DNA from: Trichobilharzia regenti
Taxonomy: Eukaryota; Platyhelminthes; Trematoda; Strigeidida; Schistosomatidae
Direction: 5' to 3'
Assembly: GCA_944472135.2 (NCBI GenBank)
Contig: OX235270.1
Location: 143,731,632-143,795,631, forward strand
DNA: 64,000 nucleotides
This document shows, in pieces, positions 5,229-63,385 of this stretch. Each line of letters opens with the position of its first letter. Within the stretch, counting starts at the first letter, position 1. The position numbers and the translations under genes are program-made. The notes below the pieces were generated by a model, which did no database searches, had not been told where the DNA came from, and saw only the letters and a program-made list of their open reading frames with translations.

Positions 5229-5529
5229 AGAATACCTGTGTATTAAAGTGAAGATGTAGGGGACACACGCACTAGCGTACGCACACACACACACATACAC
5301 ACACACAAACACTGTGTGTGATTCATAATTCTTAATTTTTCTATTGTGTAAAGCTTTTGTTGTAAAACTTGTTTTAGTCAAAATAAAATAACAACAACAG
5401 GTTAGTTAGTTTATACACAAAGTTCATCATTCGCATAGATTGAATAAATGACGAAAAAAGTACACCCATGGTAAAGGCGAACGTTCTGAAGGCTAGGAGA
5501 CATTTATGTAACATTGATCACATTATAGG
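5229..5529. other. CA microsatellite and AT-rich spacer
   Basis: (CA)n at 5281-5310, otherwise AT-rich. No gene was seen. Confidence 0.5.
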
Positions 5530-5810
5530 GGTCTTTTAATTCAGTTTGGACTCAAGTGCTCAGCCTTGGGTTGACATGTCGGCTCCTTGTGCAGAAGTCC
5601 GGGCGATTTCTGTTTTTTTTTTAATTTGAATTAATTCAGTGGATGGTGACCAGCAGTGGTATGCAGGATGACGCGCATTTCACCCTTCTTCTTCGGACTA
5701 GTCGTCAGCTGGGTGTACGTGTATTCCCCGGTCAATGATGGTGTTGCCGGTGTAGCCACCGTTTCAAAGACCAAAGCATTATCCACCAGACTACTTAGAT
5801 CAGGAGAGCT
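5530..5810 (-). mobile_element. Smα SINE, left unit of a head-to-head pair
   Basis: Reading in reverse there is an A box (near 5785-5805, AGTAGTCTGGTGGATAATGC), a degraded B box, the hammerhead block (about 5665-5715) and the Smα tail (GAGCCGACATGTCAACCCA) running to about 5530. The hammerhead belongs to a variant subfamily whose core reads CUGACGACUAGUCC, with two extra bases between the core and helix II. Smα is the well-known schistosome SINE with an active hammerhead ribozyme; this copy is predicted inactive. Confidence 0.8.
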
Positions 5811-5867
5811 ACCTCTTTCGCAGCGAGCATTAGTAATTATTTAATTTGAACTTACCCACTGATTTCT

Positions 5868-6035
5868 CGTAGCCCAAGTGGTCTAGTGGATAACGCTTTG
5901 ACATTTGAAATTATGGATACCGGTTTCGAGCAGGGAATGCAGTTAGATCCAGCTAACGATTAGTCCTAAGCAGGAGGGTTAAGTGTGCGTTATTCTGGAC
6001 TCCACTGCTAGTCACCACCCACCTATTTAGAGAGG
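5868..6035 (+). mobile_element. Smα SINE, right unit of a head-to-head pair
   Basis: An A box (AAGTGGTCTAGTGGATAACG) starts near 5877, a B-box-like GGTTTCGAGC at 5930, and a decayed hammerhead block at 5955-6010 where the core reads CUAACGAUUAGUCC. It ends in CCACTGCTAGTCACCACCCACC. It is placed about 60 bp from an inverted partner copy. Confidence 0.8.
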
Positions 6036-6891: not shown

Positions 6892-7087
6892 TGCGTCGGT
6901 GGCACAGTGGTTAGGACTCCCGCCGACCATGCACATGGTCCAGGGTTCGAACCCTCGCCGATGCACACCTGATATCTATGATCGACCTGCGAATTCTGGG
7001 CTACCGATATCCACGCTGAAAATTCCATACATGTATCAAAAATACGGTGTGGAATCAAGCTGTAATCAAAAATAAATAAATAAAAAA
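6892..7087 (+). mobile_element. SINE family B (tRNA-like head, ~190 bp)
   Basis: Pol III-type A box within TCGGTGGCACAGTGGTTAGG and B box GGGTTCGAACCCTCG about 35 bp later. The body has landmarks TGATATCTATGATCGACCTG, GGGCTACCGATATCCACG and TGTGGAATCAAGCTGTAATC, and the tail is a TAAA-type simple repeat. Four other copies lie at 21092, 26127, 36492 and 54399, all on the + strand. It does not fold into a tRNA cloverleaf beyond the promoter region. Confidence 0.85.
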
Positions 7088-21091: not shown

Positions 21092-21286
21092 GCGTCGGTG
21101 GCAGAGTCATTAGGACTCTCGCCGAGAATGCACATGGTCCGAGGTTCGATCCCCTGCCGACGCACACTTGATATCTATGGTCGGCCTGGAAAATTTGAGC
21201 TACCGATATCACATGCTGAAAGTTCCATACCTGTACCAAAAATGGTGTGGAGTCAAGGTGTAATCAAAAATAAAATAAAAAAAAAT
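21092..21286 (+). mobile_element. SINE family B
   Basis: A box GCGTCGGTGGCAGAGTCATT (diverged), B box GAGGTTCGATCCCC. The body landmarks are TGATATCTATGGTCGGCCTG and TACCGATATCACATGCTG, and the tail is TAAAATAAAA. The 80-aa open frame over it is not a gene. Confidence 0.85.
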
Positions 21287-26126: not shown

Positions 26127-26325
26127 CGTCGGTGGCACAGTGGTTAGGACTCCCGCCGACCATGCACATGGTCCGGAGTTCGAGCCCTCGCCGATGCACA
26201 CCTGATATCTATGGTCGGCCTGCGAATTCTGGGCTACCGATATCCACGCTGAAAATTCCATACATGTACCAAAAATACGGTGTGGAATCAAGCTGTAATC
26301 AAAAATAAATAAAAATAAATAAAAT
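26127..26325 (+). mobile_element. SINE family B
   Basis: Nearly identical to the 6892 copy: A box TCGGTGGCACAGTGGTTAGG, B box GGAGTTCGAGCCCTC, body CACCTGATATCTATGGTCGG, tail (AAATA)n. High similarity to 6892 and 54399 suggests fairly recent activity. Confidence 0.9.
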
Positions 26326-28876: not shown

Positions 28877-29156
28877 TCAGCATTCCTATACATACTAGTT
28901 AACTAGTCGAAAAAGTAGCAAACTTGTACTTTGTAATATTGTAGTTTCCAGGGCTTATTTCATTGTGATGTAGTTTCTGTTGGGAAACTTGAAAATATCA
29001 AATCTTGTTGTGAAATCACTGCAGAAATTATTCTCTAAACATCTTTTTCACTGCATCACTGAGTCTGGTGTCTTTTCAAATTGAATAATTTTAACTTCTA
29101 ATTCTTTACGTCTGATACTGAGCTACCTCTTTGTGTAAATCAACAAATGGAATATA

Positions 29157-29366
29157 GAAGTTAATTGGTGGATGGTGGCTAGCAGTGGAATCCAGGATAA
29201 AGCGCATTTCGTCCTATTTGGGACTCGCCAGCTGGATGTACTTGCTTTCCCCAGTGAGTGGTGATGTTCCCACCGAGGCTCGAACCCAATGCCCATAGTT
29301 TCCAGGGTCAAAGCGTTATCCACTAGACCACTTGGGCCACGAGAGCCAACTCTTGTTCAACGGGTC
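29157..29366 (-). mobile_element. Smα SINE, left arm of a head-to-head pair
   Basis: In reverse: upstream flank GACCCGTTGAACAAGAGTTG, A box AAGTGGTCTAGTGGATAACG, B box GGGTTCGAGCCTCGG, spacer, hammerhead block (29189-29240), and the end CCACTGCTAGCCACCATCC. The 66-aa reverse open frame over it is not a gene. It mirrors the unit at 29414 around a 47-bp spacer, including about 30 bp upstream of the A box. Confidence 0.9.
29189..29240 (-). ncRNA. Hammerhead ribozyme motif, Smα copy
   Basis: Helix I ACAUCCAG/CUGGAU, helix II GUCC/GGAC with CAAAUA loop, and GAAA are all intact. The core reads CUGGCGA, so the invariant A6 is G. Extra bases (UUU) sit before the AUC cleavage triplet. Predicted inactive. 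Confidence 0.8.
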
Positions 29367-29413
29367 ATATTATTTATGTAGTTGAATTTTTTGGACTTTC
29401 CCGTCGATTCATT

Positions 29414-29725
29414 GGACCCGTTGCACAAGAGTTGGCTGTCGTGGCCCAAGTGGTTTAGTGGATAACGCTTTGGCCCTGGAAACTATGGGCACTGGGTTCG
29501 AGCCTCGGTGGGAACATCATTACTCACTGGGAAATGTAGGTAAATCCATCTGGCGAGTCCCAAATAGGAGGAAATGCGCATCCTGGATTCCATGGCTGGT
29601 CATTATCCACCATTTAACTTCCAATTACATCCCCAGGCATTGTCGAAGCATCTGCACAAGTAGCCGGCATGTCAACCTGAGACCGAGCAGTTCGGGTCAA
29701 TCAATCGACGGAAAAATCTAAAATT
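29414..29725 (+). mobile_element. Smα SINE with long 3' tail, right arm of a head-to-head pair
   Basis: A box AAGTGGTTTAGTGGATAACG, B box GGGTTCGAGCCTCGG, hammerhead block (29541-29590), then the tail CATTGTCGAAGCATCTGCAC, GTCAACCTGAGACCGAGCAG and ATCAATCGACGGAAAAATC. This is the fullest Smα unit in the window. The 87-aa open frame is not a gene. Confidence 0.9.
29541..29590 (+). ncRNA. Hammerhead ribozyme motif, Smα copy
   Basis: The helix II loop CAAAUA, GAAA, and the AUC triplet before CUGGAU are kept. The core reads CUGGCGA (A6 to G), and the base before GAAA is G in place of C, which breaks the closing pair of helix II. Predicted inactive. It shares A6-to-G with its mirror copy at 29189, consistent with the two arms deriving from one template. 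Confidence 0.8.
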
Positions 29726-30710
29726 TAATTTTTAAAAAATGGAATAGTTCAAAGAACTCTTAAAAATCACGCGAAATTTTTTCATATTTAGGCATAAATG
29801 AAGCTTACATATTATGCGTAAAATAGATTAAATACAGTTTTAGTCCACGATGTGATTTGCTTCCGCATGTAAGAAACTCACATACACACACACACACACA
29901 CACAAACACACGTTAACATGTATCCACTCACACATTAATACCACATGAATCAAAATAAAGTCGGGGTTTTATTATGCAAATTTTTCAGACAATATAATTT
30001 ATACGATTATGATGAAGATGATCATTGACCTTTATAGAAAACGTTATTCAAAATGAAAATGAGATTTCATTAGTGCGGGTGCGGGTGGGGGTGGGGATGG
30101 TGTTGGTGTTGGTGATGGATTTCAGCTTCACTTTATCCTGCCTGTTTTCGTGTGTGCGTGTGTGTCTGTGTATTTGTGTACGGGGTGTGTGGTTGGTTGT
30201 AAGTGTTGTCTTTCCTGTAGTAAGTAAGTAATCTTCAAAGCGAAATGTAACATGATTATGATTATAATTAAGGATCATCATTATGTATCAAGAAAGAAAT
30301 TAGTCTGGACATGCTACTGATTAGCGTGAATAGTAGAGGCAGGCATTCTACGATGGAGTGTATATGTGATGTATGCAATGTAGGCTAAGCCATGAAGAAA
30401 AGGAACAAGAAGAAAGGAAAAAGAGAATTATACATTCATTTCTTCTTTGTTTTCATAATTCGTTGTTTCATTTTATTGCTGAAGCATTGATTTGGAGAAG
30501 AGAATTTAGCGAAAAATTGAAAATAATTCATTCATCGGTTTTTAGGAATAATAATAATAATTTTAAACTATTCAAAATAAGTTTAAATCAGTTATTCTGA
30601 AATCATTCGATGGTTGAGGAAGTGGAAATTTATCCAATTTCTGAATAAAGACATCAACGATTGTGCTAAAAGCTTAATCTTTCTGTGATTCAGATATAAA
30701 AACTATTAGT
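29726..30710. other. AT-rich spacer with CA tract and G-quadruplex motif
   Basis: (CA)n at 29884-29903, a G-quadruplex motif at 30077-30096 and TG runs to 30190. No gene was seen. Confidence 0.5.
30077..30096 (+). other. G-quadruplex motif
   Basis: Four G tracts of 3, 3, 5 and 4 with loops of 3, 1 and 1 bases. Confidence 0.7.
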
Positions 30711-30714
30711 TGAA

Positions 30715-30845
30715 GGATTCCATCATGAGATGACATCGGTTAGAGAACCATTGGAAGACCTGGGAGTACTGGACAGTTGTTTCGTCCTAGTTTGGTACCC
30801 TTCAGTAGTACGCACCCACCTCCAAGGTTTGAACCCAGGACATAT
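30715..30845 (-). mobile_element. SINE family D, left unit of a head-to-head pair
   Basis: In reverse: B box GGGTTCAAACCTTGG, GTGGGTGCGTACTACTGAAG, hammerhead block, tail CCTGGGTCTTCCAATGGTTC-like and ACCGATGTCATCTCATGATG. The core reads CUGAAGG (A9 to G) with GAAA intact. The helix I pair GUACUA/CAGUAC has one mismatch. Confidence 0.8.
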
Positions 30846-31015
30846 TGATTACATATTTTACAAGCTCGCCTTGTAACCACAAGGTCCTGTGTTCGCGCCT
30901 TGGTGGGTGCGTACTGATGAAGACTCCTATACTAGGACAAAACAGTTGTCTAGTAATTCCAGGTCTTCTAATAGTGCTAATAGTCCTCCAACCAATCAAA
31001 CTAAGCCCCTACAAA
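30846..31015 (+). mobile_element. SINE family D, right unit of a head-to-head pair
   Basis: ACAAGCTCGCCTTGTAACCA, then B-box-like GTGTTCGCGCCTTGG, GGTGGGTGCGTACTGATGAA, a hammerhead block with A at C3 and CAAAA for CGAAA, and the tail through CCTCCAACCAATCAAACTAA. The 62-67-aa open frames over it are not genes. Confidence 0.8.
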
Positions 31016-31109
31016 AACCAAAACTTGAAGAAAAAATTATTAGTTTGAGATTCACTAAGAATCAGTATTTATTGTGACCGCCTTCATCTGTATTTCAATG
31101 TTTGTATTT

Positions 31110-31975
31110 ATTTCAATCTCCTAAGGAATCAACTCTACTGTCATGCATACTCGAAGACTTGCAGGCAAAATGTCACCAACTGGCTGAAGAGGCTGGCAGC
31201 GAAGACAGGACTCCACATGAACATAGAGAAGTCAACCAAGTAACAACAACAACAACAACCAGCACCAATCATTATCAAAAGGAGAGATTTAACAGAGGTT
31301 AACTCCTTCACTTATCCGGCTAGGAAGCATTGTTTCAACCACAGCCAGCGAAATCGATGAAGGTGTCAAAGGCAGTCAGAGTCCGAAAGGCAAGATACAC
31401 CTTCATTAACCTGAAACCAGTTTGGAAATCTTCTGCCCTCATTCAGCATAAGGAACAAGATTCGAATTTTCAACATCAATGTCTGGTCTATCCTCCTATA
31501 CTCATCAGAAACTTGTACTGTTTGTAACTAAAAGGATTTCCAACAGGTTGTAGACTTTCATCAACAACTGCCTTCTCTGGTTCCATACTGAAGATCAAAT
31601 GGCCAGAAGGAATTAGTAATAAGAAACTATGGGGAAAAAACCTATCGAGCAAGAGATGATCGATGCTACACATGATCTTAGCTCAGAGAGCCGAGAAGAG
31701 ATGATCGCTCAACAATTATGTAGGCAAAAATGGAGATTGATTGATCATACATTGACGAGATCGTCAAATGGCATCAGGCACAATGCAGGCCATTGCTCGA
31801 ATGGAATCCAAATGGGAAGCAACGATTGAGTCGTCAATTCTAGGGTGACATGGAGGAGACGACAGATTATGGTTAATCGTGTACACAGTTGAAGAGGACA
31901 GCAGAAAACAGGACAAAGTGTAGATGTGTTTTTTGAAGACTTATTTTTCACTGACAACCCAAGGGAATAATAATA
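31110..31975 (+). mobile_element. LINE family G (RTE-like), post-catalytic region to 3' end
   Basis: Begins at CTCGAAGACTTGCAGGCAAA. The frames read LEDLQAKCHQLAEEAGSEDR, then a SFTYPARKHCF stretch (degenerate SFTYLGS), RKARYTFINLKPVWKSSALI, RISNRL, and a KWRLIDHTLTRSSNGI segment (from KWRWIGHTLRRPSNDI). At least four frame switches occur. It ends at GACAACCCAAGGG plus (AAT)4. A (CAA)n expansion interrupts at 31243-31258. 5'-truncated. Confidence 0.8.
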
Positions 31976-36485: not shown

Positions 36486-36491
36486 GATGGT

Positions 36492-36687
36492 GCGTCGGTG
36501 GCACAGTGGTTAGTACTCTCGCCGACTATGCACATGGTCCGGAGTTCGATTCTCTGCTGGTGAACATCTGATATCTATGATCGGCCTGCGAAATTTGGGC
36601 TACTGATATTACATGCTGAAAATTCCATACCTATACTAAAACATACGGTGTGGAATCAAGATGCAATAAAAAATAAAAAATAAAAAT
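36492..36687 (+). mobile_element. SINE family B
   Basis: A box TCGGTGGCACAGTGGTTAGT, B box GGAGTTCGATTCTCT, body CATCTGATATCTATGATCGG, and tail (AAAAAT)n at 36665-36685. Confidence 0.88.
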
Positions 36688-46895: not shown

Positions 46896-47105
46896 ATTAT
46901 TAGAGAAGCATTAGGAACCAGGGTTTAGTGGAGAGTAGTTTTATCCTAACCTGCAACTCTCCAGAAATATGCAACCGCAACCCCACTAGGGATAGAAACT
47001 AAGACCTTCATGTTGCCAGGTGACAACCATCCTCGCCAATGACTTTGGCTGATGGTCGAGCTATTTCGTGAATTGGCAGAATTGGGAATTCATGAACTGG
47101 CCAAT
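46896..47105 (-). mobile_element. SINE family D, left unit of a head-to-head pair
   Basis: In reverse: 5' extension AATTCATGAACTGGCC-type sequence near 47085, a decayed head, B-box-like TTTCTATCCC, a hammerhead block at 46935-46965 too diverged to pair, and the tail CCTAATGCTTCTCTAAT. The 75-aa reverse open frame spans the pair. Confidence 0.55.
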
Positions 47106-47107
47106 AC

Positions 47108-47312
47108 GTCGGCCCCCAGTGGGTTAATGGTCTACGAGCTAGCTCACCTTCTAACCGGAAGGTCCTGTACTCTAACCCCTGTGTTGTACACGTACTAATG
47201 AAGTGTCTTGAACTAGGACGAAGCAGCTGTACCATTCTCCAAGGCTTTCCAATTGTTTTCTAACCAATGCTGGCTAACGATGAAATCCTGTAACCAATCA
47301 AATTCCTGAAAA
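47108..47312 (+). mobile_element. SINE family D, right unit of a head-to-head pair
   Basis: A box CAGTGGGTTAATGGTCTACG, ACCTTCTAACCGGAAGGTCC (tRNA-like arm), decayed B box, hammerhead block 47190-47240 with AUGAAGU core and CGAAG for CGAAA, and the tail TTTTCTAACCAATGCTGGC. Confidence 0.75.
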
Positions 47313-47337
47313 ACAACACTTGAAGGTTAGAATTCAG

Positions 47338-47515: not shown

Positions 47516-47845
47516 CTCAACTATCTCTCTCTCTCTCTGTCTCTCTCTCTATCTTAAAGTCATTCACCTAAAAGTCTATCTGTAATTATCATTGTTAGCC
47601 GCAAAATCAACTAATTGTGTATACTAATATAGACCATATTGTGATTTGTAAATCCCTAGGGCTTAAATAATTTATTCTGAATAGTTCTACCTATTTTTCT
47701 CCTCGCTTTAAAAGGAAGTTTACTGTCGCTCTGTCCACTTGAACAACCCGTCTCTCTCTGTCTCTCTCTCCAAAAATTCTACTCACCATTTTTGTATTAA
47801 CTGAAATTTTTTTGACATAAAACAAACTACAATCATTTATTCAAG
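47516..47845. other. CT-rich microsatellites and AT-rich spacer
   Basis: (CT)n at 47524-47549 and 47751-47770. No gene. Confidence 0.5.
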
Positions 47846-47847
47846 TG

Positions 47848-47995
47848 ATGGTTTGTAGGGATTTGATTGGTTTCAGGATTTCATCATAAGCTGACATTAG
47901 TTAGAGAACCATTGGAAAACCTGGGAGTACTGGACAACTGTTTCGTCCTAGTTTGGGACTCTTCAGCAGTACGCACCCACCGGGATTCGAACAAT
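47848..47995 (-). mobile_element. SINE family D with intact hammerhead
   Basis: Forward strand shows the reverse-oriented tail (GGTTTGTAGGGATTTGATTG, ATAAGCTGACATTAGTTAGA), the hammerhead block 47927-47972, and the B-box side CCACCGGGATTCGAACA. The unit stops just past its B box at about 47993, so the A box is missing and this genomic copy is 5'-truncated. It is the least diverged D copy in the window. Confidence 0.85.
47927..47972 (-). ncRNA. Hammerhead ribozyme with complete canonical core (SINE D)
   Basis: Read 5' to 3' on the reverse strand: helix I strand GUACUG, core CUGAAGA (fits CUGANGA), helix II GUCC-CAAACUA-GGAC, core GAAA, helix III CAG/UUG without a loop, cleavage triplet GUC, and helix I strand CAGUAC. 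Helix I is six perfect pairs, helix II four, helix III three with one G-U. All the invariant core bases (C3, U4, G5, A6, G8, A9, GAAA, U16.1, C17) are present. The loopless helix III is shared with Smα and usually means activity is best as a dimer or with flanking contacts. The only copy in the window I would predict to cleave. Confidence 0.85.
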
Positions 47996-48196
47996 CATTT
48001 ATTTTCCTTACTTTTATATTGGTAATTAATGGTGTACAAATGAATTCTGGCACGCGTGTAAGCGATGTAAACATCAAACAGTGAACAGAGTGTAAGAGGT
48101 AAATCATTTTAGTGTATATTGAAATACATAATGATAAAAAAGTGAAAAAAAACAAACACAAAATTAGGACAGATAAACTGCTTGTACCATTTTTCA

Positions 48197-48368: not shown

Positions 48369-48397
48369 AACACGCTTTGTTTTTCTTCGCAAGTGTT

Positions 48398-48545
48398 GGT
48401 TTGCAGGAGAGTCACTGATAATCACCTCGAAGGACTGGATAGCTGTTTCGTTCTTGGGACAGACTCCTCAGCGGCGCGCTCGTATGACCTCACGCTAGTT
48501 GACTATTCAGACACTGGGAAGAAATCCATGGAACCATCAAGTTCC
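48398..48545 (-). mobile_element. SINE family D, left unit of a head-to-head pair
   Basis: In reverse the head is GTCTGAATAGTCAACTAGCG. The hammerhead block (about 48432-48475) has an intact CUGAGGA core, GAAA and an AUC triplet, but helix II is mispaired and helix I (GCGCCG against CAGUCC) fails. The tail is CTCCTGCAAACCAACACT. Confidence 0.7.
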
Positions 48546-48549
48546 AGGT

Positions 48550-48712
48550 GTTGAATGCCTTAGGAGGTTGACCTGTGACTTTAAGGTTCTGGGCATGATC
48601 CTTTGATGGGGTCATGGGTGTGTACTGCTGAAGAGTGTGAGACATAAATGAAACAACTGTCCAGGAATTCTTGATTTTCGACAGTACTTTAACTAAAGTC
48701 AGTTGGTAATTA
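48550..48712 (+). mobile_element. SINE family D, right unit of a head-to-head pair
   Basis: Head CTTAGGAGGTTGACCTGTGA, TTTAAGGTTCTGGGCATGAT (B-box region), GTGTGTACTGCTGAAGAGTG with an intact CUGAAGA core. Helix II is lost (GUGUGAGACAUAAAU) although GAAA and GUC-CAG follow. Tail TAAAGTCAGTTGGTAATTAA. Confidence 0.7.
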
Positions 48713-49130
48713 ATTTTCAAATTCTGTTTATTGTCATGACTATATCCTAGATACCTACATTCTCATTTTTACCTGAAATCTAATACAAAATTATTGTTTT
48801 ACAACAAACTAAATCTAATTATACATATATCTTCACTATAATACACTAAAGCTTTTCTAGAATTAATATCATAGGCATTAGAACTTATAGATAATGTGTG
48901 TGTGCCCCACGGAAGTAATTCTGTGTGCTTCATTTCTCTCTATTTCGTTGCCTGCTCTTATTCCCCAGTTGTTCTGTTCTCCACATTTACACATTTTAGC
49001 TTGAAACTATCTACTGTTTTCGTCTTTCTTCTAAGCATTTTGTCCACCGCTCTTTTTTTTCTCTCTGAAATCTAATGAGTTAATAAGCATTTTTCACTCA
49101 ACGTTCACTGTTGATATTGAGCAGCATCAT
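48713..49130. other. AT-rich spacer
   Basis: No feature recognised. Confidence 0.5.
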
Positions 49131-52504: not shown

Positions 52505-52658
52505 ACATCGATTGATTGGAGCGGAGTGCTCGGTCTCAGGTTGACATGTTGGCTCCTTGTGCAGATACTTCGACAACTCCTGGTCCTGTAACTTGAAGTC
52601 AATTAGTAGATGGTGTCAGGTGGTGGGATTCAGGATGACGCTCATTTCGTCCCAGTTG
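52505..52658 (-). mobile_element. Smα SINE, left unit (tail and part of hammerhead)
   Basis: Reverse-strand tail TGCTCGGTCTCAGGTTGACA, GTTGGCTCCTTGTGCAGATA, then the hammerhead 3' side (ATTCAGGATGACGCTCATTTCGTCC). It stops inside the hammerhead block where the forward unit begins. Confidence 0.75.
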
Positions 52659-52790
52659 GAGTCTGTGGGGGAAACTATCACTCACTGACTGGGGAATGCA
52701 GGTATATCCAGTTGACGACTAGTCCCAAACAGGAGGAAATGCGTGTTATCCTGAATTCCACTGCTAATCACCATCCATCAGTTGAAGGCA
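52659..52790 (+). mobile_element. Smα SINE, right unit, variant hammerhead subfamily
   Basis: Begins in the spacer (GGGGGAAACTATCACTCACT) and has the hammerhead block 52698-52760 with core UUGACGACUAGUCCC. The C3 base is U, the CU insertion is present, and the base before GAAA is G instead of C. Ends CCACTGCTAATCACCATCC. Predicted inactive. The 97-aa open frame is not a gene. Confidence 0.75.
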
Positions 52791-53479: not shown

Positions 53480-53605
53480 TGTGCGTTGAAGTTTCTCTAG
53501 CGATTTGGTTAAGTTTTAAGGGTGGAGTTGCTAGCACCATGCCGCAACCCTCCCTCTTCATCCGGGCTTGGGACCGGCTATAAAACTGGCGAGCTAGTGA
53601 TCTAG
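53480..53605 (-). mobile_element. SINE family C, fragment
   Basis: GTTGAAGTTTCTCTAGCGAT and GGGTGGAGTTGCTAGCACCA match the reverse-strand C body. The tRNA-like head is replaced by LINE G sequence from about 53620. The 77-aa reverse open frame is not a gene. Confidence 0.6.
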
Positions 53606-54390: not shown

Positions 54391-54398
54391 ATATATAT

Positions 54399-54600
54399 GC
54401 GTCGGTGGCACAGTGGTTAGGACTCTTGCCTACCATGCACATGGTCCGGGGTTCGAGCCCACGCTGGCACATACCTGATATCTATGGTCGGCCTGCAAAA
54501 TTTGGGCTACCGATATCCACGCTGAAAATTCCATACTTGTACCAAAAATACAGTGTGGAATCAAGCTGTAATCAAAATATAAAAAATAAAGAAATAAATT
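54399..54600 (+). mobile_element. SINE family B inserted in TA-rich DNA
   Basis: A box TCGGTGGCACAGTGGTTAGG, B box GGGGTTCGAGCCCACG, body ACCTGATATCTATGGTCGGC, and a tail of AAAT repeats. TATATA sequence lies on both sides, so the element probably landed in a TA-rich site. The 164-aa open frame across it is not a gene. Confidence 0.9.
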
Positions 54601-61455: not shown

Positions 61456-61465
61456 TGTGTGTATC

Positions 61466-61605
61466 ACATAGGGAACCATTGAAAACCAGTAGTGGGGTAA
61501 TCGACAGTTTTTTCATCCTAGTTTGGGACTCATCGGCAGTACTCACCCACTGGTGGTCGAACTCAGAACCTCCAGGTTACAAGTCAAGCTCGTAGACCAT
61601 TCAGT
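61466..61605 (-). mobile_element. SINE family D, left unit of a head-to-head pair
   Basis: In reverse: A box GACTGAATGGTCTACGAGCT, TGACTTGTAACCTGGAGGTT, B-box-like CTGAGTTCGACCACCAG, hammerhead 61497-61552, and tail CTGGTTTTCAATGGTTCCC. Confidence 0.8.
61497..61552 (-). ncRNA. Hammerhead ribozyme motif (SINE D), nearly intact core
   Basis: Core CCGAUGA (only U4 to C differs from CUGANGA), GAAA present. Helix II is GUCC/GGAU with CAAACUA loop, so a G-U pair closes it next to the core. The GUC triplet is present, but helix I (GUACUG against GAUUAC) is disrupted. Predicted inactive. Confidence 0.7.
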
Positions 61606-61700
61606 CCCAAACTAGAATGAAACAGCTGTCCAGTACTCCCCAGTATTCAGTGGTTCACTAGATAATATTAATCCGCAGTCAGACTATAAACAAATGAACT
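61606..61700 (+). mobile_element. SINE family D, right unit of a head-to-head pair (starts in the hammerhead)
   Basis: Starts at GTCCCAAACTAGAATGAAAC, the helix II part of the hammerhead, then AGCTGTCCAGTACTCC and tail TTCACTAGATAATATTAATC. The head and the 5' half of the core are missing because the mirror unit takes their place. Confidence 0.75.
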
Positions 61701-63385
61701 CCCTGCAAACTAGGTCTTGGAGAGATTACATGCACATAATAAAAGCTCTTGCCTATGAGTTACCGAACACTAACGTCCTTACATCTACTAACTGAATAGG
61801 GTTTTATTATTTTCACTCTTCAGTAAAGTATCGATATCAGTTATGTTTATGTTATCATGTTCTGTTTTCTACAGATAAATTCTTTGCTAAGAAAAAATGC
61901 ATAAAACAAATTATTCCATGAGTTTAATTTTGATTTAATTACCATAAGCACTGGAAGACCAATTTTCACGGTTGATCTTGAAGAAGAATGATATGAGTGA
62001 ATAATTTGAATGGAGAGGGTGGCAGACAGTAATATGGTTACTTAAACTTCAACAAACTTCAAGTACCTGCATTTGTTTTTGTTTGAGTTGAGGATTTACT
62101 CCTAAATTCAATTTCATCTCGTTTAATCCATTCACATCATCATCATCACCATAATCACGGTATCTCATTTAACTTATTCAATTATGTGTGTGAGTAGGCA
62201 TTTTCTTCTTATTTGGTATACATAGATGGAGAAGTATTATACAATACTTGTGTTAAGGAATACACTTCCACAACACTTGAGGAATTCACACACATACACA
62301 CACTTATTTGAGTATAAACGATGGATAAATGTTTCGACAAGTGAATCAGATTAGAACAGGTTAATGTGAGAAGTACTTGAAAACTATAGCATTGAACATT
62401 GAGTAGGGAATGTTTATTTGTCCAATGACTAATCTTGTAAGCGGCGGGAAATAAGACTTTTTCTTATTTTTGTGAAAAGAGACGGGTTATAAGAAACAGA
62501 ATGCTGCAATTGAACCTTGTTCTCAGATGAAGAAAAAAGTGAACCGAAAAAAAATGCCAAAAGAAAAAGTAGTATTATTATTATTATTAGTAGTAGTAGT
62601 AGTACTAGTAGTAGCAGTTAAGTGCGTGTGAGAAAATTCAGAGACGAATGAGTCACTAAGATTTGATGATAGATACAAGTGTGAGCAAGCACGTACACAC
62701 GAACACACATGCAGAGGGCATTTTTTTAATGCATCCTTTATGAAAGCAGACAATTATATGAATACTGGTCAGAGTATATTCGACATGTTTTATTGGTTTA
62801 TTTCGCTGGTTTAATTTAATACTTCACTATATAAATATATACTTAGTCACTTTACTCCGTTACTAGCTAGAAAAGGTAACTTTAGAGTGGGTGTACGTCT
62901 ACTCCCTAAAGGAAAGACAACTAACTGAGTCAGCATTCACTACTACTCTAATTCACTTATGATGTTGAGAATTTATACTGCCCAAGGGAAAATTCCCTTT
63001 TTTTCTCTCTCTCTTTTCTTTCATTATGCTGATAATACAAGAAACAGGCAAATAGTCGAATGGATAGGCAAACCGATAAATAAAATGAAAAAAAAGAAAT
63101 AAGAAGAAATTTATTAGATATCTGTCTGAAAAATCTCTATTCATTTATAAATCTATCTATCTATCTATATAGAAATATCGAAAAACTGTTTTTACAATGG
63201 GAAAACAATTCTTATCTCATGTTCATTTAGCTAATTACACGTGGGGTGACTTCGTCTATCTTTGTATTAAGTGAATCTGCTTAGACAATTCTCTCGCATT
63301 TAAATTTTAATGATTATAATTCAATTAGAAGAGATAAACCTTTGGAATACAGTTATAAAATTGAATTTGTAAACAATTCATATAA
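61701..63385. other. AT-rich spacer with ATT/AGT and CTAT repeats
   Basis: (ATT)n to (AGT)n at 62572-62606 and (CTAT)n at 63151-63168. No gene recognised. Confidence 0.45.

Follow-up and report, generated by a model that had tools for sequence, protein, structure and literature searches.

The focal insertion and its hammerhead

The window, a stretch of 64,000 nt of Trichobilharzia regenti DNA (contig OX235270.1) that was analysed as a whole, carries on its minus strand at 47842–47990 a 5′-truncated insertion of 149 nt of the repeat D. It corresponds to positions 244–393 of the D unit and is 97.3 % identical to the 394-nt unit of the genome. Its bounds follow from the target-site duplication, a perfect 13-bp repeat at 47829–47841 on the tail side (AATAAATGATTGT on the minus strand) and at 47991–48003 on the head side; as a null for these 13 bp, a duplication score of at least 10 arose by chance in one of 1,500 random placements. 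The insertion consists of an AC-rich tail, complete in its long form (47842–47926, minus strand), a type I hammerhead (47927–47972, minus strand) and a remnant of the tRNA-like head (47973–47990, minus strand), which retains part of the B box and the next bases and lacks the A-box region. With a 5′ end falling inside the B box and a full-length tail, the copy looks like a single, 5′-truncated product of the long start site. As the A-box half of the head is missing, it is probably silent unless it is transcribed by read-through from outside.

The minus strand of 47927–47972 reads GUACUG-CUGAAGA-GUCC-CAAACUA-GGAC-GAAA-CAGUUG-UC-CAGUAC, with helix I formed by GUACUG/CAGUAC, helix II by GUCC/GGAC with the loop CAAACUA, and stem III by ACAGUUGU. 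A preliminary description had recognised a hammerhead in these letters (CUGAAGA, GAAA, GUC and complementary helices on the reverse strand), and a covariance-model search of the window (Rfam RF00163, Hammerhead_1) confirmed it with a significant score of 51.5 bits, above the gathering cut-off of 34 (E 1.8e-10). The core CUGANGA, GAAA, a cleavage triplet and three stems open at helix I, by which RF00163 is defined, are all present in the focal copy, and cleavage is expected after GUC. Seven matches in the window reach the gathering score, the focal one among them. Three are of the D type (47927, 176, 30766) and four of the type of Smalpha, another hammerhead family (49234, 29544, 29190, 57465), and the alignments of all six non-focal matches contain core or stem changes. 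The length given earlier for loop II also holds, CAAACUA being 7 nt long versus 6 nt in the Smalpha-type copies.

The proposed 3-bp helix III of CAG/UUG has to be abandoned for a single molecule, because its loop would have zero nt; the minimum-energy fold of the single focal RNA is not a hammerhead and pairs CUG with CAG. The D consensus has the 8-nt palindrome ACAGCUGU as its stem III, and one Smalpha copy has another, AUGCGCAU; among the 22 D copies of the window the exact palindrome is found in only three. When two RNAs were folded together, the best dimer was a double hammerhead both for the D consensus (−29.1 vs 2 × −12.5) and for that Smalpha copy (−32.5 vs 2 × −12.7). For the focal copy the double hammerhead reached −18.8 and was beaten by another fold at −26.4. 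The focal unit had also been proposed as the best active candidate, which is doubtful because the A-box half of its head is missing and two G.U pairs occur in its stem III. Its ribozyme differs by one base from the exact 46-nt D consensus, its stem III is weaker in the dimer, and 1,659 exact consensus ribozymes exist elsewhere.

Searches for the D ribozyme in viral and prokaryote contigs and for the focal copy in plasmids and phages gave no match, and three ORFs scored against Pfam (18 further ORFs of at least 105 aa were left out) matched no family. A Twister-P1-like match lies at 53544–53600 on the minus strand (35.5 bits with a window-wide E of 5e-4; cut-off 67.2), of which the part GCCGGUCCCAAGCCCGG fits well. 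In addition, weak sub-threshold U2 and SCARNA7 matches were seen at 31607–31702, 5248–5426 and 29841–30030, all on the minus strand; SCARNA7-like parts are mentioned for W elements in the available text of PMC8490949.

The D family and related hammerhead repeats

An iterated profile search of the window gave 25 matches, from which three Smalpha copies were removed to leave 22 of D. Identity to the D consensus, which was seeded in part from the focal copy, is 96 % for this copy and 64–83 % for the remaining 21 copies of the window. All checked core letters are kept in three of the 21 window copies with an aligned ribozyme region (47992, 48523, 48539), and among these three the focal copy alone also keeps the stem letters. 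The core change C3A is present in five of the 22 copies, and U4C in four, where it is linked to further diagnostic letters. Since these letters are common to the four, a D subfamily with a changed core did spread, judging by sequence. C3A recurs in both hammerhead families, as two of the four above-cut-off Smalpha matches (49234, 57465) have it as well. Selection on single window copies was considered and dropped; the ribozyme region is 79–80 % identical to the consensus versus 72–76 % elsewhere, a difference too small for this purpose.

In the assembly of 954 Mb and 548 contigs, the exact 46-nt consensus ribozyme occurs in 816 + 843 = 1,659 places, and a control with reversed letters occurs in none. 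Chance origin of the D ribozyme is therefore excluded genome-wide for the family. The complete unit of 394 nt comprises a 5′ module, a tRNA-like head, the type I hammerhead and the AC-rich tail, and is present in the genome both dispersed and in tandem. A tandem array lies on C1 near 3.88 Mb, where 13 listed places (L013–L025) are spaced 394 nt apart; all six units compared are identical, so the array appears recent or homogenised. In L018, each of the seven units carries a hammerhead of 54.1 bits (RF00163), preceded by 72–73 nt whose tRNA-model score of 21.6 bits falls short of the cut-off of 29. ARAGORN reported no tRNA either for the window or for the D consensus; a B box is visible.

The earlier classification of D as a SINE agrees with the target-site duplications, but it is half of the description. 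In its tandem 394-nt units and in insertions that cross the unit boundary D resembles the retrozymes of Metazoa. Metazoan non-LTR retrozymes, in the parts of PMC7229834 that describe them, are repeats of 150–450 bp that carry type I hammerheads, occur in tandem and show duplications of more than 4 bp. D agrees with them in unit size, hammerhead type, tandem arrangement and duplication length, and differs by its tRNA-like head and its largely dispersed copies.

D is also separate from Smalpha, as had been proposed. Like D, Smalpha (SM-alpha, W36.2) is dispersed in many copies, forms head-to-head pairs and carries its type I hammerhead behind a tRNA-like head. However, helix I, stem III, loop II and the tail all differ, and the spacer between head and ribozyme is shorter in Smalpha. 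Between copies of the two there are only weak matches, confined to head and ribozyme (E 3e-6 to 3e-8). When three ribozymes of D and four of Smalpha are aligned, 92.9 % of the cells pair, versus at most 38.6 % with a slid partner, and six of the 14 base pairs differ on both sides between the families, helix I and stem III showing such paired changes; as there are only two lineages, few independent events lie behind these paired changes. Full-length Smalpha ribozymes possess a distal extension of helix I. A corresponding TGGG/CCCA extension in D was rejected as unsupported, with 69 % of the cells pairing versus 57–78 % in slid controls.

Further hammerhead repeats of Schistosoma mansoni, W25.2 (415–428 bp), W26.2 (399–402 bp) and W27.2 (403 bp), all with type I hammerheads, were published in 2021 (PMC8490949). 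They are arranged in tandem on the W chromosome with partial or full-length copies on autosomes, and in-vitro cleavage was seen for three of five candidates taken from variants of W25.2 and W36.2, the remaining two being mutants for which no activity was expected (both from the same source, as far as its available text goes). Like D, these repeats combine a non-Smalpha type I hammerhead with tandem and dispersed, full-length and partial copies, and at 399–428 bp they are close to the 394 nt of D. Identity of D with one of these families is plausible by size, the comparison having been made by size and description. The suggestion of a second, perhaps undescribed family therefore stands with regard to the distinction from Smalpha, but the kind of element was already known, because W25.2, W26.2 and W27.2 had been published. 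The 2009 count of hammerhead candidates in S. mansoni was about 38,500 (PMC2770079, in part). Six strings of D-type ribozyme sequence had no match in literature text. D may also be a relative of Sjalpha, reportedly treated by Laha in 2000.

Which form of D RNA served as template can be approached from the ends of the insertions. Nine same-strand D junctions read across the unit boundary, a pattern that would fit tandem or circular templates. Among 89 alignment starts, nine of which are these read-throughs, none falls within 298–306, the cut being after 301. Ribozyme-cut monomers were accordingly rejected as insertion templates, and tandem or circular RNA fits better than a linear cut monomer because of the nine boundary reads and the lack of starts at the cut. 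The D unit RNA folds at −141.2 kcal/mol versus −117.5 for mononucleotide shuffles (sd 6.5); local folding leaves most of the region around the start sites unpaired.

These data bear on the possibility that the ribozyme is a mere passenger and that D spread independently of self-cleavage. Consistent with this are the U4C subfamily with its linked letters in four window copies, the five copies with C3A, the absence of all 89 starts from the cut site and, in the available text of PMC11167929, the dispensability of cutting for insertion in a Penelope system. Against it stand the 1,659 places at which the 46-nt ribozyme is preserved exactly, the preservation of all stems by the paired changes between D and Smalpha and the presence of a ribozyme in every unit of the examined array stretch, and we regard a passenger role as unlikely.

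Head-to-head pairs in the window and in the genome

Five places in the window contain two D copies in head-to-head order, at 1–259 on the window edge, 30705–31027, 46897–47323, 48383–48713 and 61463–61718. The pair at 30705–31027 is surrounded as a whole by a 14-bp duplication with one mismatch, and its single members give none. Smalpha-type copies are arranged in the same way at 5625–6029, 29156–29624 and 52567–52784. The resulting counts of pairs within 100 bp, five for D and three for Smalpha with no tail-to-tail pair, are based on copy borders drawn with the pairs already known; random placement yielded means of 0.49 and 0.08 and never reached the observed counts in 20,000 tries each. The Smalpha member at 5625–5827 has its own 11-bp duplication, so not all neighbouring copies arise together.

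Two other SINEs of the window were used as controls. One of them, a second SINE with a tRNA head, measures about 196 nt, lacks a hammerhead and occurs at 6892–7086, 21092–21284, 26127–26318, 36491–36685 and 54398–54589, and the related SINE S22 has a 3′ end similar to the LINE-like repeat S43. No head-to-head pairs were found among the 5 and 11 window copies of these two SINEs. In 294 kb, made up of the window and 63 loci that were chosen for D or Smalpha, 29 head-to-head pairs were counted among 145 D matches and four among 37 Smalpha matches, versus zero among 39 and 55 matches of the two controls.

For the genome, 70 D loci on C1 were taken in listing order, and 13 belonging to one tandem array as well as three that repeat another locus or its flanks were removed. 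Of the 54 distinct loci left, 25 are single copies and 23 have an abutting head-to-head junction; all junctions together amount to 23 head-to-head, one tail-to-tail and 11 same-strand, and where copies abut, no gap or overlap exceeds 18 nt. The breakpoints of all 23 head-to-head junctions differ. Each pair thus arose on its own rather than by copying of a single inverted master, and a composite inverted element moving as a unit was rejected.

The two outer 3′ ends of a pair are regularly unequal. In 21 of 22 clean pairs one end is long (388–394) and the other short (244–371, in 17 of the 21 at 347–371), one pair is long/long and none is short/short, so that the short member mostly ends 23–47 nt before its partner at about 394. 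Under independence a discordance of 50 % is predicted, because half of all these ends are long, and the observed one has a p of 5e-6 for the 22 pairs. Furthermore, a duplication flanking the whole block scores above the 99 % level of a null of 600 mismatched flank pairs (top mismatched score 15) in 14 of the 22 pairs, where it is 12–16 bp long, in five of the 25 singles and in one of seven others, with 1 % expected; in eight pairs and 20 singles it is not above that level. The 14 whole-pair duplications are 81 % A+T versus 62 % in the sample.

Abutting Smalpha pairs are present in four of eight Smalpha loci examined (L001, L002, L007, L008), and in L005 the two copies are 45 nt apart; among the 74 Smalpha-like matches listed, five minus/plus neighbours lie at most 550 bp apart and no plus/minus neighbours that close were seen. 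Both members end at 203–205 of the consensus used, with no long/short difference.

Inverted head-to-head pairs are thus frequent among the D insertions, and they behave like single events. Variants are shared at 69 of 2,510 sites between the arms of one pair and at 115 of 6,718 sites between different pairs (19 pairs, 48 cross-comparisons). This excess, together with the head-to-head order, would be expected if the end of the first cDNA folded back and primed its own copy, both arms then coming from one template; such self-priming is discussed for inverted repeats of Penelope in the available text of PMC3846280. However, the arms of L031 and L047 share none of 9 and 16 changes and are strongly unequal in divergence (9 vs 0 and 13 vs 3), which suggests two templates for these pairs, and the regular difference of the outer ends and the flanking duplications also speak against a fold-back, which we rate as quite improbable. 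In another view D would be a conventional Pol III SINE that a LINE copies, with mirror pairs arising as separate insertions beside older copies through target preference. This accords with the tRNA-like head and its B box, the LINE-like length of the duplications, the separate duplication of one Smalpha pair member and the 3′ end that S22 has in common with S43, but is the least probable reading in view of the discordance in 21 of 22 pairs, the whole-pair duplications in 14 of 22, the close abutment of the copies (18 nt of gap or overlap at most), the ratio of 23 head-to-head to one tail-to-tail and the lack of pairs in two other SINEs. The best reading of each D pair is a single event with priming on the two strands of the target, in the style of Penelope-like elements.

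A probable Penelope-like mode of insertion

The comparison with Penelope-like elements comprises head-to-head inverted copies, a duplication around the whole insert and an optional tail on one copy, all of which were found in D. According to the available text of PMC3846280, the terminal repeats of Penelope inserts are inverted, mostly head-to-head, with an 8–10 bp duplication around the whole insert and an optional 31-bp tail on one copy. For purified Penelope protein, PMC11167929 describes in its available part that both strands are cut and extended from internal RNA starts, that two start sites bound an optional tail of 30–40 bp, and that the hammerhead is dispensable for insertion. D has in common with these elements (PMC3846280, PMC11167929, both in part) the hammerhead, the head-to-head repeats, the whole-insert duplication and a tail, about 31 bp long in Penelope, that one copy may carry; internal starts and priming on both strands are probably shared as well. 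A Penelope protein, however, would not fit into the 394 nt of D. Penelope elements have also been proposed as helpers of animal retrozymes and are strong candidates because type I hammerheads, tandem copies and co-existence are in common (PMC7229834, in part).

The fit between D and Penelope is close but indirect. The two ends of a D pair almost always differ, whereas the start site in the purified Penelope system is equal on both strands (PMC11167929, in part). The duplications of D are longer, 12–16 bp versus 8–10 bp in rotifer Penelope (PMC3846280, in part), and the Smalpha pairs do not have two end classes on the consensus used. A Penelope helper was not found in the genome by a GIY-YIG search (PF01541), a model that may miss Penelope endonucleases, in which 150 of 1,803 first-look candidates were scored and the one match was SLX1-like by eye.

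On balance it is probable that D is a non-coding, non-autonomous hammerhead retroelement copied from a tandem or circular template, with pairs that arise from one event primed on two strands by a probable Penelope-like enzyme. Tandem D RNA, or a circle derived from it, would serve as the template. Tandem transcripts would be cut into single units by the ribozyme, which probably works best as a dimer via the palindromic stem III, and the cut RNA might be re-ligated. A reverse transcriptase, most likely Penelope-like, would prime from both nicked target strands with internal RNA starts at two nearby sites, and the two cDNAs would meet at their heads to give a head-to-head pair.

A wider conjecture, which we put forward with little confidence, is that schistosome-like flukes possess, in their hammerhead SINEs, retrozymes that have a tRNA-like promoter and ride on a Penelope-like reverse transcriptase. 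Two RNAs would be held together as a double hammerhead by the palindromic stem III (D consensus ACAGCUGU, one Smalpha copy AUGCGCAU); in this way two templates would be brought to one target and copied from both nicked strands into a pair. If this is true, the ribozyme would be a template-pairing and a processing device in one.

Among the publications listed, no mirror pairs of hammerhead SINEs were recognised by title or abstract, and the available text of PMC8490949 does not describe them for the W repeats. New here is the mirror-pair footprint of D, the kind of element itself being known. The finding touches the question why genomes keep hammerheads in small retroelements and which enzyme moves them. 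The D pairs would represent a physical footprint of the insertion reaction, with two start sites, both strands and one event, and the question therefore becomes testable by counting in any fluke assembly. A Penelope-style footprint would tie together Smalpha-type SINEs, retrozymes and Penelope elements.
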